Shown here one piece after another: positions 1 through 6,303 of a stretch of DNA of 6,373 bases (the first letter of the stretch is position 1; each line of letters starts with the position of its first letter). Under the pieces are notes generated by a model. The model ran no database searches, was not told the DNA's origin, and worked only from the letters and a program-made list of their open reading frames with translations. The stretch is from Pseudomonadota bacterium (GTDB taxonomy: Bacteria > Pseudomonadota > Gammaproteobacteria > Halothiobacillales > Halothiobacillaceae): positions 1 to 6,373 of the forward strand of contig JAJYPA010000480.1 of NCBI GenBank assembly GCA_021795795.1, written 5' to 3'. The position numbers were made by a program, and so were the translations under genes.

Positions 1-482
1 AAATGCCCAAGGCAAGCAAAGAGATTCTTCCAGTTGAAATAGGCATGGCACATTTCTCCGTGTTTTCATCATCCATGAATATGCAAATATGCATTGTTGT
101 GAGGAGGTTATCAACGAACATGTCGCGTCAGACTCAGGCTATTGGCTGGATTTTCTATATCAGACGGAATACTCCAATTTGTCTGCTAGGCCTCGGCAAG
201 TCTATCGATGATGTACTGATTCTCCTGATCCAGACAACGCGGCCTGACGTGCCATGATCTGACAAAAAGTTGAGGCTGATCATTCCGGGAGTTGTCGGCT
301 GCCCACTCTGTCGTACCGTTGCCATGGTGATATTTCATGTTGGCATCCCGTGATGAGAAAATCATAGTACAGTTCAGTCAGCCAAGCCATCCATTACTCA
401 ATCGGTTCCAAGGTCCCTGCTGACAACCCAATGTCCGCTATCAGTCTGCTGCCGACCACCAGGTCTCAGCGGCGGCAGGGCA
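1..482. other. Left-edge region without a supportable gene
   Basis: I recognise no gene here. A plus-strand reading frame of 84 codons (3-257) has no ribosome binding site at its first ATG. A GAGGAGG at 101-107 lies 12 bases before an internal ATG at 120, which would give a 45-residue peptide of no known family. On the minus strand a frame opens at an ATG at 122-120 just after an in-frame TGA and runs off the window edge for 40 codons, again without a clear ribosome binding site. The two overlap, so at most one could be real. A small inverted repeat (ATGCA-aata-TGCAT, 81-94) lies in the AT-rich part. From about 258 to 430 I see no coding or RNA signal; the rest is repeat copy A, described separately. 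Confidence 0.4.
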
Positions 483-486
483 GCGG
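432..486 (+). repeat. Degenerate dispersed repeat, copy A
   Basis: These 55 bases align without gaps to 6249-6303 with 47 identities by my hand count, sharing stretches such as GCTATCAGTCT, CTGCCGAC and CAGGGCAGCGG. The copy is in the same orientation as copies B and C. The clear similarity to copy C stops at base 486, three bases before the inferred end of the integron cassette array, so the array seems to abut this repeat. It contains no ORF. I infer a dispersed intergenic element of the kind common in proteobacterial genomes; I cannot assign it to a named family. Confidence 0.6.
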
Positions 487-555
487 AACCAGTCGTTCAC
501 ATCCAGACTGGGAACGGGTATTATCTGCCAGTCTCGCTTGAGCGCAGGGTTATAC
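483..555 (-). other. attC recombination site of the HNH cassette (left end atypical)
   Basis: Read on the minus strand, the site starts three bases after the HNH stop codon with the core GTATAAC (555-549). It continues with CCTGCGCTCAAGCGAGACTGG and, after a loop, the complementary CCAGTCT, giving a perfect 7-base stem (AGACTGG/CCAGTCT). It ends with GTGAACGACTGGTT, which resembles the inner-arm to core side of known attC sites. The 73-base length is within the usual 55-141 range. GTATAAC is the exact complement of GTTATAC at the start of the same cassette (1261-1255), the expected signature of an excisable cassette. The distal core reads GTTCCGC, which departs from the GTTRRRY consensus, so the far boundary is less certain and may mark chromosomal flank or a rearrangement. 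Confidence 0.6.
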
Positions 556-1260
556 AGATTATTCACGGACCAACCTGCTTACACGCTCGTAGAGCTGCGA
601 AACCAATGTTCTTGAGTTTTCACCGTAGTGGGCCTCTCTATGGCAATTCGGGCATAGAGCAGCCGCGTTGGTCACGGTGTCGGAGCCATTATCGGCAAGC
701 TGACGAACGTGATGCACTTCGAGGAACGGTAGCCCGTCTGAGCCATTGAAAGGGGCCGGTTGGCCGCAAGATTCGCACTTGCCATTGGCTTGTTGAAGCA
801 CCCAGGCCTTCACAGCCGCATCCCTTTGGTACTGAGTAATCGCGAATGAAGTAGCTGTTGGACGGCGATTGCCTTGAGGTTTTGAAAGGTTTTTCTTTTT
901 CGCTTCTTCGCGCGCCTCAATTTCAAACGCGGTAACAGGGATGAATTGCCTTCCCTCGGACTGCGCAATCATTGCTTCAATTTCCGCCGCCACGTTTGCT
1001 CCAACATTCTTAGCAGGCTTGAGACCCGCCAGCCAGACACGGCCCAATAGCGTCATGACGTAGGAAATGTTTTGCATTCGATATTCAAATGCCTTTTCCG
1101 TCCGTCCAAACTTGGCTGTAAGATCCTGGTAGTAACGTTTCTTGATGAAAGGCTGGCCTTGGCGCTCCTTCCGTTGCATCTCAATGTAAGCTTCGACCGA
1201 GGCGCTTAGCTCTTCTTTGCTCCAACTGTCACTCATGTGAATACGGTCCTATCTGTATAA
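489..1260 (-). mobile_element. Integron gene cassette 2 (HNH endonuclease cassette)
   Basis: This 772-base unit has the layout of an integron gene cassette: one ORF, short flanks and a 3' attC. On the minus strand it begins with TTATAC after the recombination point in the attC at 1255-1321, has 24 bases before the HNH start codon, and ends in its own attC at 555-483. The complement between its first bases and its own outer core (GTATAAC) is what cassette excision and insertion would leave. The left boundary is the weaker one because the distal core is non-consensus. It is the second cassette from the attI-like site. Confidence 0.65.
559..1236 (-). CDS. HNH endonuclease, McrA-like
   Basis: A 225-residue protein predicted to cut double-stranded DNA with a beta-beta-alpha-metal HNH fold. 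The nuclease domain fills the C-terminus: zinc-binding pairs C154-x2-C157 and C195-x2-C198, the signature L172-EVHH-176 supplying the general-base histidine, N190, and H199/H203 after the second cysteine pair. All key residues are present, so it should be active. Residues 5-80 form an N-terminal region including EYRMQNIS, a block I recall in front of HNH domains in restriction-like proteins, where it may recognise DNA. A lysine-rich linker (about 108-125) joins the two. The ATG at 1236 has only a weak AGGA upstream. It is the sole gene of an integron cassette, and its stop codon lies three bases before the attC. Likely role, inferred: restriction of foreign or modified DNA. No methyltransferase is nearby, which fits a modification-dependent or toxin-like enzyme better than a classical restriction pair. 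Confidence 0.88.
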   Translation of the reverse strand: MSDSWSKEELSASVEAYIEMQRKERQGQPFIKKRYYQDLTAKFGRTEKAFEYRMQNISYVMTLLGRVWLAGLKPAKNVGANVAAEIEAMIAQSEGRQFIPVTAFEIEAREEAKKKNLSKPQGNRRPTATSFAITQYQRDAAVKAWVLQQANGKCESCGQPAPFNGSDGLPFLEVHHVRQLADNGSDTVTNAAALCPNCHREAHYGENSRTLVSQLYERVSRLVRE

Positions 1261-1321
1261 CGACGCAAATAACCGGCGCTGAGCGACAGCGGAGCTTCCT
1301 AGTTGATTTGCCTCGTTAGCT
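1255..1321 (-). other. attC recombination site between the two cassettes
   Basis: On the minus strand this 67-base imperfect palindrome starts with AGCTAAC (1321-1315) and ends with GTTATAC (1261-1255). The outer arms TAACGAGGCAAAT and TAACGACGCAAAT, one read on each strand, match at 12 of 13 positions. The inner part (around 1275-1300) can also pair, with unpaired bases, as in folded single-stranded attC sites. The GTTATAC end fits the GTTRRRY consensus. The AGCTAAC core is the exact complement of the GTTAGCT that starts the 146-residue cassette at 1820-1814. It lies between the stop of that gene (1353) and the HNH start (1236). Confidence 0.8.
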
Positions 1322-1352
1322 GTGAATTATGTGAATAATGTTGCATACGAAA

Positions 1353-1793
1353 TTATTCCGAGAGCTTTACTCCATTGCGACAAACTTCACTAGTTGCTAT
1401 ATCAGAGACCCCTACTTTCTCTTCAATTTTGACTAACCAACGAACCACTATTTTGAATGGCCATTTAACATCCTTGAACTCCCACTCGTACACCCTGATT
1501 TTACTATTTTTGGTACTGGTGTGGTGGGCGGCACGCCTTTCTCCAATATTTTTCAGCTTTTTTTTGGTTTCAATATCATAAAAATCTGCATCTAGAGTTG
1601 GGTTTTCACCTTTATCTAAATCAGACCAATCAAGACGAAATATAATTTTATATTCTTCAATTGCAACTGGCTCAAAAAAATGACAATAGCTTTCCACTTT
1701 AGTGGATAGCTCTTGTGTTTCACCTGAATCTAAACGTATTACACAAACTGAATCAATTGTATGTTTTAGGTCGCCTCTTCTGATTGGTTCCAT
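1353..1793 (-). CDS. Hypothetical cassette protein, 146 residues
   Basis: I do not recognise this family. The protein is soluble-looking, with no signal peptide or membrane segment. It is rich in charged residues and alternating hydrophobics, for example a run of beta-type sequence around residues 98-125 (IRVYEWEF, WPFKIVVRW), so a small beta-sheet fold is plausible. It has two cysteines far apart (17 and 37), a third near the C-terminus, and a HH pair at 90-91 but no recognisable catalytic motif. The ATG at 1793 is well supported: GAGGAGG lies on the minus strand at 1809-1803 with a 9-base spacer. It is the first cassette gene after the attI-like site, so it should be the best expressed of the array. 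AT-rich composition suggests transfer. Many cassette proteins are toxins, antitoxins or anti-phage factors, but nothing in this sequence points to one of these. Confidence 0.7.
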   Translation of the reverse strand: MEPIRRGDLKHTIDSVCVIRLDSGETQELSTKVESYCHFFEPVAIEEYKIIFRLDWSDLDKGENPTLDADFYDIETKKKLKNIGERRAAHHTSTKNSKIRVYEWEFKDVKWPFKIVVRWLVKIEEKVGVSDIATSEVCRNGVKLSE

Positions 1794-1802
1794 ACTTGAG
1801 CG

Positions 1803-1809
1803 CCTCCTC
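1803..1809 (-). promoter_or_regulatory. Ribosome binding site of the 146-residue cassette gene
   Basis: The minus strand reads GAGGAGG nine bases before the ATG at 1793. It is a near-complete anti-16S match, lies inside the cassette just after its boundary, and fixes the start codon. Confidence 0.75.
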
Positions 1810-1813
1810 GAAC

Positions 1814-1880
1814 AGCTAACGTTAATTCGACTGCACTAACAGTGCAGCGATAACATTCCTTATCGCAGCATAACATCTCA
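1814..1880 (-). other. attI-like integron primary recombination site
   Basis: Read on the minus strand, this stretch has the parts of an attI site in order. There are two direct repeats ATGTTATGCTGC and ATGTTATCGCTGC (1876-1865 and 1856-1844), then a spacer with a perfect 7-base inverted repeat (CTGCACT-aac-AGTGCAG, 1831-1847), then the core GTTAGCT (1820-1814) where cassette 1 begins. From memory, class 1 attI1 has two ATGTTA-containing integrase-binding repeats about 19 bases apart, and the second starts 34 bases before its GTTAGGC core; here the figures are 20 and 36. A further perfect inverted repeat GCGATAA/TTATCGC (1847-1866) overlaps the repeats. It does not look like an attC: no minus-strand gene ends upstream of it and no outer core pairs with the GTTAGCT. 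No integrase gene accompanies it in the window. Confidence 0.65.
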
Positions 1881-1899
1881 TACCACCCCCCAGTCACAA
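1870..1899 (-). promoter_or_regulatory. Possible cassette promoter (weak)
   Basis: On the minus strand TTGTGA (1899-1894) and TGTTAT (1875-1870) stand 18 bases apart, each matching the sigma-70 consensus at four of six positions. The position, overlapping the distal edge of the attI-like site and pointing into the cassettes, is where a cassette promoter could be. The match is weak and could be chance. Confidence 0.2.
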
Positions 1900-2198
1900 A
1901 TGATTGTTAATGCCCATATTGGCGATTTCCTGGCCGCAGGGAAAGCTCCCCTTCCCACGCTGCTGTCGCTCGTGGCCGCGTGTAGAATGACGACAACGGG
2001 TCAGATAATGTCATTTGCTTTCCGCTGCTGAATGACCGCTCTCAGTCTCTTACCGCCCATGGGGCAGCACCTTGGCTGAATTTACTGCTTTCCATTGACG
2101 GTCGGCAAGCATAATCGTCCTATGCCCGTCCGCCGCAGATCCTTGGTCTATGGCCGCCCTTGTCACACGCCATCTGATAGACTCTCCAGATTAGGCGA
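1881..2198. other. Spacer between attI-like site and dinB; no integrase gene
   Basis: In most integrons the integrase gene starts on this side of attI, transcribed away from the cassettes, so plus strand here. I find no tyrosine-recombinase sequence in any frame. The longest sensible plus-strand frame is 43 codons (1900-2031, ATG start, no ribosome binding site) and matches nothing I know. The stretch contains repeat copy B and the leader of dinB. I see no CTGT-N8-ACAG type LexA operator ahead of dinB. Confidence 0.6.
1999..2048 (+). repeat. Degenerate dispersed repeat, copy B
   Basis: These 50 bases align without gaps to 6215-6264 with 41 identities by hand count; the best part, from ATTTGCTTT to CTCAGTCT (2013-2048), has 32 of 36. 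It shares the AATG-CCGCT-TCAGTCT centre with copy A. Same orientation as A and C. It is non-coding and lies between the attI-like site and dinB. Confidence 0.55.
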
Positions 2199-2203
2199 GG
2201 AGG
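2199..2203 (+). promoter_or_regulatory. Ribosome binding site of dinB (selects TTG start)
   Basis: GGAGG, within GAGGAGG, lies seven bases before the TTG at 2211. No ATG gives the polymerase N-terminus at a suitable distance, so the signal supports a TTG start and shows that the reading frame was once a properly translated gene. Confidence 0.7.
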
Positions 2204-2210
2204 TTATCGA

Positions 2211-3301
2211 TTGCCCTACCAAACACCGGAAGAGCGCAGCCCGGAGCTCCGCAAGATCATCCACGTGGACATGGACGCGTTCTTTGCGGCTGTGGAGCAA
2301 CGCGATCGGCCAGTGCTCCGTGGGGCGTCGTTGCGACGTGCAGCTATGAGGTGCGACGATTTGGTATCCACTCGGCCATGTCAGCAGCCAGAGCCCGTTC
2401 TCTTTGCCCCCAGGCCATCTTTGTCCGCCCCCGTATGGAGGCCTATCGGGAGGCCTCCCGCCAAGTGATGACCATCCTGCGCAGTTTCACACCGCTGGTG
2501 GAACCCCTATCTCTGGATGAGGCATTTCTGGACGTAACGGCCGCCACGGCCGACGGAACCCTGGCAGTCGAGATCGCTCGGGAAATCTTGGATCGCATCC
2601 ATCGAGAAACGGGATTGACGGCTTCAGCAGGGGTCTCCTTCAACAAGCTGCTGGCCAAGCTGGCCTCCGACTGGCGTAAGCCCCACGGGCTTTTTGTCAT
2701 TCCACCAGAGCGCGGCCTCGCCTTCTTGGCGCCGCTGCCTGTAGGCAAGCTGCATGGCGTGGGTCCGGCCACCGTCAAAAAGCTCTCGGCAATGGACGTG
2801 GAAACGGTATTGGATCTACGGAACCGCTCGCTGGAGTTTCTTGTGACCCATTTCGGCAGGTCGGGAGGCTGGTTTTACGATGTAGCACGGGCGATCGACG
2901 AGCGGCCAGTCCAACCGTCCCGCCAGCGGAAGTCGGTGGGGACCGAACGCACCTTCTCCAAAAACTTGGAGGATCGAAGCGTCATGCTGACTACGCTACA
3001 GGAAATGGCCACGCAGGTTGCGGCCCGCCTCCAGGCCTTGAACTTGGCGGGCCATACCGTGAATATCAAAGTGCGCTTTCCCGATTTTACGACGGTCACC
3101 CGAGCACATACGGCGACCGAGGGCATCGGGAGCGCGGATGCTATCGCGGCATTGCTACCAGAGTTACTCGACCGAGCAGTTCCCCAGGGCGCGTCGGTGC
3201 GCCTGCTGGGGATCACCGTGAGCGGCTTGGTCCACGTCCTGGCAGCGAGTCGGGCTGCACAGCAGATGAGCTTGCTGGACGGAATCCTCAACCAAGGGTA
3301 A
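2211..3301 (+). pseudogene. dinB: DNA polymerase IV (Y-family), frameshifted by internal deletion
   Basis: DinB is the translesion polymerase that copies damaged templates and depends on the sliding clamp. The first frame (from TTG 2211) gives the expected N-terminus, KIIHVDMDAFFAAVEQRDRP, with the metal-binding aspartates, and stays in frame as far as VLRG (to 2324). From 2324 the homologous reading continues in another frame: GVVATCSYEVRRFGIHSAM, then EPLSLDEAFLDV with the catalytic D-E pair, then LLAKLASDWRKPHG, the little-finger domain and a C-terminal QMSLLD resembling a clamp-binding motif, ending at TAA 3299-3301. The family's roughly 12 residues around the PVAVGG segment are missing, so I infer a deletion of about 37 bases (3n+1). 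A GTG at 2351 could start a 316-residue C-terminal product, but it would lack the first catalytic aspartate. GC content is high compared with the genes on either side. The product is very probably inactive unless the shift is a sequencing error. Confidence 0.85.
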
Positions 3302-3305
3302 GAAT

Positions 3306-3494
3306 ATGGCCAGGGAATGGGCGGTGATGCAGCGGGAGCAGACCTTCACAGTCGTCATGGGAAAAGCTATTATCGGCCAAGAAGCGCCGATCATATCCTA
3401 TGACGAACTTCAGTTTGGTTCCACACAGCAGTCAATCGTGCGAACTCGCGAATACATAATGATGGGGTTGAAGTGGGCAAAAGTAAGCTTCTAG
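3306..3494 (+). CDS. Doubtful 62-codon ORF after dinB
   Basis: It starts with an ATG four bases after the dinB stop and ends in TAG. There is no ribosome binding site between the two genes, and the protein resembles no family I know and has no clear domain. It might be a decayed remnant or simple read-through of spacer. The 243-base gap between dinB and the Toprim gene contains nothing else I can name. Confidence 0.15.
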   Translation: MAREWAVMQREQTFTVVMGKAIIGQEAPIISYDELQFGSTQQSIVRTREYIMMGLKWAKVSF

Positions 3495-3544: not shown

Positions 3545-4816
3545 GTGGGGACGGAGATCAATCTGACAGTCGGCGGAATTGTTATTGATTGGGCGAAAAA
3601 CGACCCTGGCAGAGATCACGGCTTTTTATTTCAACCATGTGACCTTGCTAGACGTCATTCCGACCAAGCTGACTACGAGTACTGCGCGGAGCATCCCGAG
3701 GTCGATCTATCGCTTGAAGAGGAATCGTTAGCGCGCCCATTGGCCGCCACTCTCCCTCGCCTAAACTTAGCTGGCTGGACGCGCGACAAGGCACGCTATG
3801 AATACAACGCCTTGCTAGCCGAACAGGCTGAGTTTGCAGAAGAAATCGAACAGACAGCATCCAAGCTTTTGACATTCGAAGAATTTTGCGAACTTGTGAG
3901 TCGATATCCTCTTAAAACACTTGACGATACCTACTTAAACTACGAGCCCGAGCTAGATCTAAAGATTAAAGAACGGTTTCGCGCAGATCAAGTGGATATG
4001 GACAGACTCCCTGACTCCCAAGACTCATTGTATTGGTCAGTAAAAAGTTATTTTGCTTCGAAAGTATGTGTGCTTAGCCCTTATTCAATGCTGCAAGTTT
4101 TCGGGCTATGCGAGTCAAACAACAACGCAGAAGTTATTTGGCAGTATGGTCCACTAGTCGCCGCAGGCTGGGCAAATATTTCAGCATTTAAATCGGGTAC
4201 CAATCGATCGCAGACTATACTAGTAGCTACGGAGGGCACTACTGACTCCCGCATCCTGAAGCATGCCTTAGCCATATTACGTCCAGACATTTCAGACTTT
4301 TTTAAGTTCGTGGACGTTGATGAAAGGCATCCATTTTGGGGAACCGGAAACTTAGTTAAGTTCGCGGAGGGGCTTGTACGAATTGATATCCAGAATAAAG
4401 TTATGTTCATTCTGGATAATGACGCTGAGGGAGTAGATGCTTTAAGGCGCCTTGAGCAACTAGACATGCCGGACAACATGCGAACGATGCTGCTCCCTGA
4501 TCTTGATGCTTTTCGTGCCTTTCCAACAATAGACCCGGAAGGGGCATATACCTCGGACATTAATGGACGCGCTGCGGCGATCGAATGCTATTTGGATCTC
4601 CGGCTTCCCAATTACGGCCTTCCACTAGTAAGATGGAGTAACTATAAGAAGGACGTTGACGCATGGCATGGATCCCTAGAGCACAAAGAAACTTACATGC
4701 GCCATTTCCTTAATCAAACGCCAGAAATGCTCAGAAGTGACGGCTACGACACTACAAAGCTCGAATCTGTATTGGATGCGATCACCACTCAAGCGGTGTT
4801 GCTACAGCACGAGTAA
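3545..4816 (+). CDS. HEPN/Toprim-associated domain protein
   Basis: A 423-residue soluble protein. The first 60 residues (GTEINLTVGGIVIDWAKN, then DHGFLFQ and RRHSDQADYEY) match the N-terminal domain known as HEPN/Toprim-associated. A helical, acidic middle follows (about 80-200). The C-terminal half is a Toprim nuclease fold of the kind seen in OLD-type and topoisomerase-primase proteins: E230 in VATEGTTDSRIL is the conserved glutamate, and D291-x-D293-xx-G296 in FILDNDAEG is the metal-binding DxD. E347 in AAIECYLD may be a further acidic ligand. The catalytic set looks intact, so metal-dependent DNA or RNA cleavage is likely. Family members often sit in defence islands, but their substrate is not settled to my knowledge. 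GTG start with GGGAG upstream. The next gene, for a DUF3800 protein, is 114 bp downstream on the same strand. GC content is lower than dinB, suggesting acquisition. Confidence 0.82.
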   Translation: MGTEINLTVGGIVIDWAKNDPGRDHGFLFQPCDLARRHSDQADYEYCAEHPEVDLSLEEESLARPLAATLPRLNLAGWTRDKARYEYNALLAEQAEFAEEIEQTASKLLTFEEFCELVSRYPLKTLDDTYLNYEPELDLKIKERFRADQVDMDRLPDSQDSLYWSVKSYFASKVCVLSPYSMLQVFGLCESNNNAEVIWQYGPLVAAGWANISAFKSGTNRSQTILVATEGTTDSRILKHALAILRPDISDFFKFVDVDERHPFWGTGNLVKFAEGLVRIDIQNKVMFILDNDAEGVDALRRLEQLDMPDNMRTMLLPDLDAFRAFPTIDPEGAYTSDINGRAAAIECYLDLRLPNYGLPLVRWSNYKKDVDAWHGSLEHKETYMRHFLNQTPEMLRSDGYDTTKLESVLDAITTQAVLLQHE

Positions 4817-4907: not shown

Positions 4908-4934
4908 ATGAATAATAAGGAGTTTTTATTTTGA
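4908..4934 (+). other. Possible leader mini-ORF overlapping the DUF3800 start
   Basis: ATG 4908 opens an 8-codon frame (MNNKEFLF) whose TGA (4932-4934) overlaps the TTG start of the next gene at 4931. Such an overlap could couple translation, but the mini-ORF has no ribosome binding site of its own and contains the one used by the downstream gene, so chance is quite possible. Confidence 0.15.
4916..4922 (+). promoter_or_regulatory. Ribosome binding site of the DUF3800 gene (selects TTG)
   Basis: TAAGGAG ends eight bases before TTG 4931 and 14 bases before ATG 4937. The spacing favours TTG. The choice changes the protein by only two residues. Confidence 0.6.
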
Positions 4935-6019
4935 CAATGACTTTCTATCTTGATGAAAGTGGACATAGCGGCGATTTGGTCAATTGCGGTGTGAGATATG
5001 ACTTCACGGAGCAGCCGTTTTTTGTTTTGGCTGCGGTAGGTCTCGGGGATGAGGCCGAGATAGCGAAGATCGTGGCCAATCTACGCAAACAACATAAAAT
5101 CCCTCCGGGGGAGCTAAAGTCAAAATCTCTGCAAGCTAAACCGATGTTTATTGCGGACATAATCAACAAATTATTGCAAAACCATGTTCCACTATTTGTC
5201 GAAGTTGTGGATAAGCGTTATTTTATTTGCACCGCCATCACGACCTTTCAGCTTCTATCTCCGTCAATGGGTTTCCAACAGAATCACGATTTGTTTATCC
5301 TCCAAAATAAGATCGCTGATTTCTTGTATAGTAAGGCGCCTTCTCGAGTGTTCGAGACGTTCATAGACGCTTGCTTAGCCCCATCGAACATCAAACTTCT
5401 AACATCATTCTATAGCGTGAGGGAATTCTGTCACAATGCCGCCTATACAAGTGGTGCAGACGAAAACTTTTTTGATACATTGTTATGCATTGTAGAGGAT
5501 GCGCTCTTCTCTTACCAAGAGCAGAGGCGGAATAATGAAGAAGCATATCTAAGATTTCTGCCTCCACCCGACAGGAATAAGAACAATAAATATGTGTGGA
5601 TGTTGCCGAATCTCACGTCATTCACGAACATCTATGCACGATTAAATCTCTTTTACGGACGTAAAATAAATGGTGTTCATCTAGCCCATGATCAACAGTT
5701 AGAATTGGATGATATTATACAACGCGGAAAAACGTCTACAGAAATGCTGCAAGAGACGGCTGTCAATTGTTACACACCGCACTCAGATTTTATATTCGAA
5801 CAAATTGCCAAACTATATTTTGTCCAATCCCATGAATCTATTGGTATTCAGTTAGCTGATGTTGTGGCTGGGACTGTAATGCGTTATTTTAGGGATAGCC
5901 TACTGCATAAGAGCATGAATGTGGACCTGTCTCGTGCGATTAAGATGATGATTAATGGATCGGATGGGCGGACAGGATATGGCATTAATCAGGTTGTTCC
6001 TGCACACCTTGTGCGTTGA
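4931..6019 (+). CDS. DUF3800 domain protein, predicted RNase H-like nuclease
   Basis: A 362-residue soluble protein carrying the DUF3800 hallmarks in order: YLDESG at 6-11 (acidic D8, E9), ELKS at 61-64, VVDKRYF at 92-98, HLAHDQQLE around 250-258 with D254, and IQLADVVAG at 306-314 with D310. DUF3800 is thought to have an RNase H-like fold in which these acidic residues bind metal, so nuclease activity is probable but substrate and trigger are unknown. The full set of motifs indicates an intact gene. The start is TTG with TAAGGAG eight bases away. It follows the HEPN/Toprim gene by 114 bp; the gap holds a TTGACT at 4818-4823 but no convincing -10 partner, so I cannot tell whether it has its own promoter or is cotranscribed. 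I see no strong terminator after either gene. Composition is AT-rich relative to dinB. Inferred role: effector or partner in a defence pair. Confidence 0.85.
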   Translation: MTMTFYLDESGHSGDLVNCGVRYDFTEQPFFVLAAVGLGDEAEIAKIVANLRKQHKIPPGELKSKSLQAKPMFIADIINKLLQNHVPLFVEVVDKRYFICTAITTFQLLSPSMGFQQNHDLFILQNKIADFLYSKAPSRVFETFIDACLAPSNIKLLTSFYSVREFCHNAAYTSGADENFFDTLLCIVEDALFSYQEQRRNNEEAYLRFLPPPDRNKNNKYVWMLPNLTSFTNIYARLNLFYGRKINGVHLAHDQQLELDDIIQRGKTSTEMLQETAVNCYTPHSDFIFEQIAKLYFVQSHESIGIQLADVVAGTVMRYFRDSLLHKSMNVDLSRAIKMMINGSDGRTGYGINQVVPAHLVR

Positions 6020-6214
6020 AGAATGTCATATGTTGTTTATGCATCAGGTTATATGTTCCTTTTTATGGGTGGAGAAATATTTCTGGGAAGAGATTTTACG
6101 CAAATCAGATTGAGCCCGCGCCATGACTAATTCCGTTTCTAACTCATTGGAACATCTTTAATATAGGGCAATGAACAATAGAACGGCGCCATGACGGATC
6201 TGCTATCGACAGTA
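6020..6214. other. AT-rich spacer after the DUF3800 gene
   Basis: I see no gene, RNA or clear terminator here. The decamer GCGCCATGAC occurs twice (6118-6127 and 6186-6195). Repeat copy C follows directly and GC content rises there. Confidence 0.4.
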
Positions 6215-6303
6215 GGTCGGATGATACGATTTGCTTTCACCTGCTGAATGACTGCTATCAGTCTTCTGCCGACGATCAGGGCTCAACGGCGACAGGGCAG
6301 CGG
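6215..6303 (+). repeat. Degenerate dispersed repeat, copy C (fullest copy)
   Basis: This 89-base stretch joins the parts found separately in the other copies: its left part matches copy B (1999-2048) and its right part matches copy A (432-486), the two overlapping in the AATG-CTGCT-TCAGTCT centre. All copies share one orientation. It has no ORF. It may be the near-complete element, with A and B truncated or diverged versions. Together B and C flank the dinB, Toprim and DUF3800 segment. Confidence 0.6.

Follow-up and report, generated by a model that had tools for sequence, protein, structure and literature searches.

The window, by which we mean the whole 6,373-nucleotide stretch of DNA analysed here, carries two gene cassettes on its minus strand, preceded by an attI-like site. 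In the position where an integron integrase gene (intI) would start, there is dispersed-repeat-like DNA followed by a frameshifted dinB (Table 1).

Table 1. Positions of the recombination sites, cassettes and flanking elements in the window
Feature	Position	Strand	Description
Dispersed repeat copy in place of the 3' half of attC 2	430..531	+	430-486 is 86% identical to 6247-6303; boundary judged by eye
Cassette 2	549..1260	-	From TTATAC to R'' box; 3' half of attC missing; self-matching boxes at 1260-1255 and 555-549
ORF of cassette 2, HNH endonuclease, 225 aa	559..1236	-	PF01844, E=2.9e-11; PADLOC mREase_IV, E=5e-35, residues 113-222
attC of cassette 1	1255..1321	-	R'' AGCTAAC, 5-nt spacer, L'' AAATCAAC, one extrahelical base relative to L' GTTATTT, R' GTTATAC
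Cassette 1	1261..1819	-	From TTAGCT to the G of its own attC; start and attC R'' exact mirrors
ORF of cassette 1, 146 aa	1353..1793	-	No Pfam or PADLOC match at E≤0.01
attI unit, conserved	1818..1913	-	R1 85.4 bits (window is one of the six R1 seeds); BLAST relatives in three genomes
Core GTT of attI unit	1820-1818	-	Crossover G|TT at 1820/1819
Simple site AGTGCAGTCGAATTAACGTT with L-like and R-like boxes	1818..1837	-	Consensus aGTGCAGTcgAATTtACGTT, 25 selected sites, 5 beside intI or a remnant
Downstream direct repeat ATGTTATCGC, DR1-like	1847..1856	-	20 bp from upstream repeat; consensus aTGTTA-cgCTGCA, same 25 sites
Upstream direct repeat GATGTTATGC, DR2-like	1868..1877	-	Consensus ATGTTATaC.GCA, 25 sites selected from 49
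Dispersed-repeat-like DNA where intI would start	1914..2028		Family D1 covers 1991-2060; 1914-1965 aligns with upstream DNA of related sites
dinB, frameshifted	2211..3301	+	Frames 2211-2468 and 2351-3301 overlap; some 37 bp absent between 2305 and 2324

Read along the minus strand from 1880 to 1814, the site consists of two ATGTTAT repeats, TGCACTGTTAGTGCA, the simple site and the core GTTAGCT. The direct repeats lie at 1876-1870 and 1856-1850 with a spacing of 20 bp, the inverted repeat TGCACT/AGTGCA occupies 1832-1846, and the core, one base off GTTRRRY, is at 1820-1814. This layout is that of attI1 of class 1 integrons, where two direct repeats about 20 bp apart are also followed by a simple site and a GTTRRRY core; counted by hand, the spacing is 20/37 bp in the window and 19/35 bp in attI1. 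The paired direct repeats, inverted repeat, GTTAGCT motif and attI1-like spacing described in the first-pass annotation are all present. In local alignment with attI1 (a reference sequence that matched at least 4897 plasmid records at an identity of at least 99%) the window site scores 13, a value reached by one of 1000 dinucleotide shuffles. It differs from attI1 in having no adjoining integrase gene and many copies per family genome. A promoter scan of 1750-2220 returned no calls, a TTGTGA-N18-TGTTAT pair being visible by eye only, and any promoter role, such as that of a Pc directed into the first cassette, would be putative. The terminator scan of the same segment gave nothing useful. Among known RNA families a single sub-threshold match was found in the window, and the tRNA search was likewise unproductive.

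The first bases of a cassette are expected to mirror the R'' box of its own attC. Cassette 1 begins with G|TTAGCT and the exact mirror AGCTAAC opens its attC 31 nt past the stop codon. Cassette 2 begins with G|TTATAC, and the mirror GTATAAC is found at 555-549, 3 nt past the stop, the remainder of this attC being replaced by the dispersed repeat. The claim of two correctly oriented cassettes is borne out, with self-matching ends for cassette 1 and only half an attC for cassette 2. The attC content of the window, one weak site (E=0.21) and half of another, compares with at least two in the definition of a CALIN. DNA at 479-1276, which contains the HNH cassette, is 98% identical to a locus in genome G015 (G015:C10, L127). 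About 22 nt of the preceding attC are kept there (a 26-nt match), but a different, unrelated gene precedes the cassette.

On the other side of the site, the dispersed repeat and broken dinB reported in the intI position are as described, with D1 at 1991-2060 and dinB about 37 bp short, a gap calculated manually using the G010:C52 and G004:C29 coordinates. The absence of intI is likewise confirmed: with one A-type IntI and one B-type IntI cut short by its contig as tblastn queries, the best match in the window had E=2.1. An intI between positions 1880 and 2210 of related strains, as had been envisaged, was not seen: four dinB loci of the A. caldus type were inspected (one each in G024 and G019, two in G023), and in these homology to the window ends at about 2029-2077, before attI. 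The matches of DinB indicate Acidithiobacillus (74% to A. ferriphilus, 67% to A. concretivorus).

Together with the DNA upstream of it, dinB seems to form a sharply bounded unit at 2028-3348: several relatives begin at 2028-2030 and end at 3334-3348, their upstream flanks differ among the loci inspected, and the ends resemble, by eye, inverted TGAATGACCGCT motifs of the dispersed repeat. The repeat itself, at 430-486, 1991-2060 and 6207-6303, has many matches across the family genomes. Parts of the window match A. caldus plasmids, and no plasmid record covers 80% of it. The A. caldus plasmid mpAca1.1 carries an attI-family match at L082 6309-6380, which coincides with G019:C2; DNA similar to the dinB 3' end lies shortly before it, and a hypothetical gene follows. 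Elsewhere in the window, 3545-4816 encodes a HEPN/Toprim-N protein (PF18871, E=1.6e-45) with no PADLOC match and 4931-6019 a DUF3800 protein (PF12686) with PADLOC PDC-type matches (best E=5.5e-9). The two are possibly a defence pair.

A family of related sites in Acidithiobacillaceae

BLAST relatives of the window site were found in other genomes of Acidithiobacillaceae, the family of A. concretivorus (G002): 78% identity over 1818-1953 (E=2.3e-20), 81% over 1818-1926 (E=1.3e-18), 76% over 1815-1955 (E=6e-15) and 84% over 1817-1874 (E=4.6e-9). After the core they carry different genes, and no intI match was present in their loci examined. Using six integrase-less copies (the window and five found by BLAST), we built a model, R1, and searched 29 genomes of the family, many of them draft assemblies. 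There were 48 matches at E≤1; 44 of them, including five seeds, reached E≤0.05 and were distributed over 20 of the 29 genomes. Outside the family, none of 149 other Pseudomonadota genomes had a match at E≤0.05 under stricter filters. With laxer filters, 39 of those 149 genomes again gave none at this level; four of the 39 had weak matches, the best at E=0.06. Two further genomes of the order had no matches. The highest count per genome, eight, was found in G006, which has only a partial intI and whose size of 4.6 Mb is unusual; this genome may be mixed.

Together with the window, the 48 matches at E≤1 make up the 49 elements considered below. Near copies across core and cassette are counted separately (G008b/G014:C69, G009:C82/G016:C5, G018b/G009:C24 and G004:C28c/G008d), G018a and G018c represent a single place read on both strands, and G012:C15 and G014:C133 are without a clear core. 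Subtype labels, like the A-type and B-type labels, were assigned by eye. In an alignment of 25 sites selected from the 49, the window site fits the pattern ATGTTATaC.GCA - spacer - aTGTTA-cgCTGCA - aGTGCAGTcgAATTtACGTT, and the attI boxes are conserved across sites with differing upstream DNA. We refer to these sites as the B-type attI family of Acidithiobacillaceae, a name coined in this analysis.

Some members of the family stand next to an integrase gene. Five of the 44 matches at E≤0.05 adjoin intI or a remnant of it and 39 do not in the DNA examined, which extended at least 1 kb upstream for 36 of the latter and at least 3.5 kb for 30. At G011:C171 the neighbour is a divergent B-type intI with an open frame cut by the contig end; at G010:C38, G010:C51, G005b and G009:C162 it is a remnant of divergent B-type intI. 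R1 E-values for the linked sites are modest, from 7e-5 to 0.015 per genome. A further linked-type site, recognised by eye at a contig end, is G015:C116 (E=0.09, outside the 44). When the 49 loci were searched by tblastn with the A-type IntI of G015 and the contig-cut B-type IntI of G011, matches at E≤1e-3 were obtained for seven elements and for none of the other 42. Beyond the five linked sites there are two matches: G001:C205 has a distant recombinase 2.8 kb downstream of it, and at G008c a C-terminal piece of IntI lies 2.6 kb upstream. Similarity of the window site to integrase-adjacent attI sites, which the first-pass annotation had made a point to be checked, was found for all five (G011:C171, G010:C38, G010:C51, G005b and G009:C162); against the G011 site the local alignment score is 17, compared with a shuffle maximum of 14. 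The A-type integron lineage was also considered as the source of the window site and rejected: R1 matches none of the 12 loci judged A-type by eye, all of which were scanned with it. The A-type attI of G005 shows no resemblance to attI1 above shuffles, 484 of 1000 reaching its score.

Integrases over the TIGR02249 cut-off occur in seven of the 20 genomes with R1 matches (G002, G004, G005, G011, G015, G017 and G022) and in none of the other 13. Four genomes, G004, G005, G015 and G017, contain both lone sites and a full-length intI classed as A-type. Only G011 has a B-type intI with an open frame, which is divided between two contigs; the G011 IntI reaches 343.8 bits against a cut-off of 265.

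Cassettes and dispersal

Self-matching ends could be examined in the 38 of the 49 elements that have a closed ORF after the core, the 11 others being dropped. An exact mirror between cassette start and R'' near the stop was found in 12 of the 38, compared with a mean of 0.75 and a maximum of 4 in a core-swap control (500 repeats). The 12 include the window, two linked sites and two near-identical copies (G008b and G014:C69). Exact self-match failed in 26, and one-mismatch mirrors, of which there were 10, were not above control (mean 7.98). A covariance model built from 19 attC sites of integron arrays in Acidithiobacillaceae gave 19 matches at E≤0.01 in 45 loci, 18 of them on the cassette strand, and none at E≤1 in eight loci without known integrons. 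Model calibration was short throughout. Such a match lies within 2.5 kb downstream of 13 elements (11 unlinked, 2 linked); 28 of the 39 unlinked sites have none. Our own attC scanner did not separate the strands, with 11 sense and 8 antisense counts at a score of at least 14 downstream of sites. At two sites the genes recur as cassettes of other arrays: G014:C133 (88% to an array of G022) and G009:C162 (78% to an array of G005).

The question of which parts travel together is illustrated by the alpha copies, ten copies assigned by eye to the subtype of the window, five of them in G006. Their 260 bp of repeat and attI give a BLAST match in 35 of 45 pairs, whereas neither the first 500 bp past the core nor the flank from -1160 to -260 matches in any of the 45 (plus strand, E≤1e-3 throughout). 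G006:C2 and G015:C94 have 258 bp in common further upstream, at unequal distances. The dispersed repeat adjoins alpha attI units in both orientations, and it also sits in the attC of cassette 2. A different combination is seen in linked G011 and lone G018b, whose cassette starts are identical at 243 of 263 positions and whose attI sites are identical at only 35 of 61, the switch occurring at the core. Since G009:C24 is a near copy of G018b, this case counts once, not twice. Three lone pairs and one linked pair have matching flanks while their cassettes differ. In two of the lone pairs (G004:C28a/G008d and G001:C205/G022:C7) the attI type differs as well as the cassette, and in the third (G006:C101b/G015:C19) the distance between the site and the end of the common flank is 477 bp greater in one genome than in the other. 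Finally, G004:C28c and G008d have attI and cassette in common (96% over 402 bp) but not the further upstream flank, so that an attI unit can move with its cassette.

Possible loading in trans and alternative explanations

The best explanation, to which we would give about an even chance, is that the window holds a genuine B-type attI belonging to a family of dispersed units, with cassettes loaded by IntI in trans. The window site would be an attI that belongs to a second Acidithiobacillus integron lineage, the B-type one, and that has no integrase gene beside it. The unit, repeat-like DNA plus attI of roughly 100-150 bp, would have become dispersed over the genomes of Acidithiobacillaceae. An IntI from elsewhere in the cell, whichever it was, would then have recombined circular cassettes into the GTT core (attI x attC), the HNH cassette probably first and cassette 1 later. 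At present the window array appears static, given that half the attC of cassette 2 is gone and that there is no integrase in cis. Several observations count against this reading, namely the presence of intI over the cut-off in just seven of the 20 genomes, units that move with a cassette, the weakness of attC 1 and the 28 of 39 unlinked sites without an attC-model match.

The serious rival, in our estimate possible to a degree somewhat short of even, is that the sites are local fossils. On this view a cis integrase once stood beside every lone attI, or beside the ancestor of each unit, and cassettes were captured before intI was lost by deletion or repeat insertion; at a later stage the copies would have spread together with their cassettes or diverged, trans activity being unnecessary. 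The intermediates G010:C38, G010:C51, G005b and G009:C162, which retain pieces of B-type intI beside attI, agree with such a history, as do the repeat-like DNA occupying the intI position, the same attI unit and cassette on different further flanks in G004:C28c and G008d, and the broken attC of cassette 2. Fossils are also favoured by the fact that intact intI is rare in these genomes, 13 of 20 having none over the cut-off. However, five alpha copies in the single genome G006 are part of a group with a common intI-less repeat and attI but unrelated cassettes and near flanks, 42 of the 49 elements are without an intI-like match at E≤1e-3 in the DNA examined, and one cassette start occurs both at a linked site and at a lone one, the switch lying at the core. 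The alpha copies, with the same attI unit and unrelated cassettes, and the G011/G018b case favour use of the sites after separation from intI. Taken together, the dispersal data favour, without proving it, cassette capture at sites that had already parted from intI, although part of the pattern can be put down to homologous recombination or to joint movement. Under the explanation by loading in trans, the attI platforms would be dispersed, loaded at least partly in trans, and now possibly inert.

It is very improbable that we are dealing with a leader or promoter element which is carried by the repeat in front of unrelated genes and resembles attI only incidentally. In the alpha copies examined by eye, repeat-like DNA does lie immediately upstream, and the many unlinked sites without a downstream attC-model match would fit, but sites whose boxes agree in kind and order adjoin intI frames, the exact self-matches of cassettes far exceed the control mean, and all attC-model matches except one are on the cassette strand. 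Least credible of all is that the stretch is the attC of a lost cassette or a cassette end of the delta-attI type: our calibrated attC scanner does give the window site 12.6, like attC 1 with 12.4, but a score of at least 6 ending at the core occurs in only 2 of the 49 elements, so that it is not a family property (the other 47 homologous sites have none), the covariance model run on the window with filters off did not list 1814-1880 at E≤10 (its top match was the weak 1255-1321, 11.3 bits), and the minus strand has no ORF of 60 aa or more from 1881 to 2210. On the covariance model and the family-wide scanner scores, the attC of a lost cassette was rejected. The proposal of an attI kept without its integrase is supported both by this silence of the attC model and by the homologous sites that adjoin intI or its remnants in related genomes; judged by its sequence, 1818-1913 of the minus strand is an attI, not an attC.

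Known systems and implications

Integrons are defined by an integrase with attI in cis. Compared with a complete integron, the window has the attI site and the oriented cassettes, and lacks the integrase in cis. It shares cassettes without an integrase with CALINs, which differ in being defined on attC only, whereas the window has an attI. IntegronFinder 2.0 is described as detecting intI and attC, and not attI outside class 1, where such sites are poorly described (PMC9024848). Detached attI sequences are known from delta-attI-type gene cassettes of class 1 and class 2 integrons. There, however, a piece of attI replaces attC 3' of the ORF inside integrons (PMC12901181), whereas the window attI is whole, stands 5' of the cassettes and has no integrase. 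Degraded integrons of Xanthomonas, in which intI is truncated or lost and cassettes remain, are similar in this respect; they differ in consisting of an ancestral locus next to ilvD plus CALINs, with no dispersed attI copies in the part of the account drawn on here (PMC12444791). In attG sites, too, cassettes are inserted outside an integron, but the same source presents these as consensus sequences for recombination, distinct from both attC and attI (PMC12444791), while the sites here keep attI boxes. Loss of intI is reported in Treponema (PMC3607928), integron integrases are listed in an A. ferrooxidans genome (PMC6736930), and the term 'attI-like' is used in PMC10127599. Among the open-licence papers listed for lone or multiple attI, or for attI with integrase loss, we found no description of dispersed integrase-less attI sites, and in that literature we found no paper on Acidithiobacillus with CALIN and integrons.

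It is tempting to go one step further and to consider a distributed integron of Acidithiobacillaceae, in which one integrase, where present, would serve many scattered attI docking sites, each with one or few cassettes, the attI unit having multiplied with the dispersed repeat. We regard this as a tentative and rather unlikely extension. If true, it would be a new architecture, with one enzyme and many platforms.

The window site is one of dozens of such sites in Acidithiobacillaceae, a family of acid-loving bacteria, and most of them are without an adjoining integrase gene. A family of lone attI sites with up to eight matches per genome would imply a platform that is itself able to spread and that can perhaps be loaded in trans. 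The integron content of such genomes would then be undercounted, and the question of whether a cassette landing site needs its own integrase becomes directly testable.
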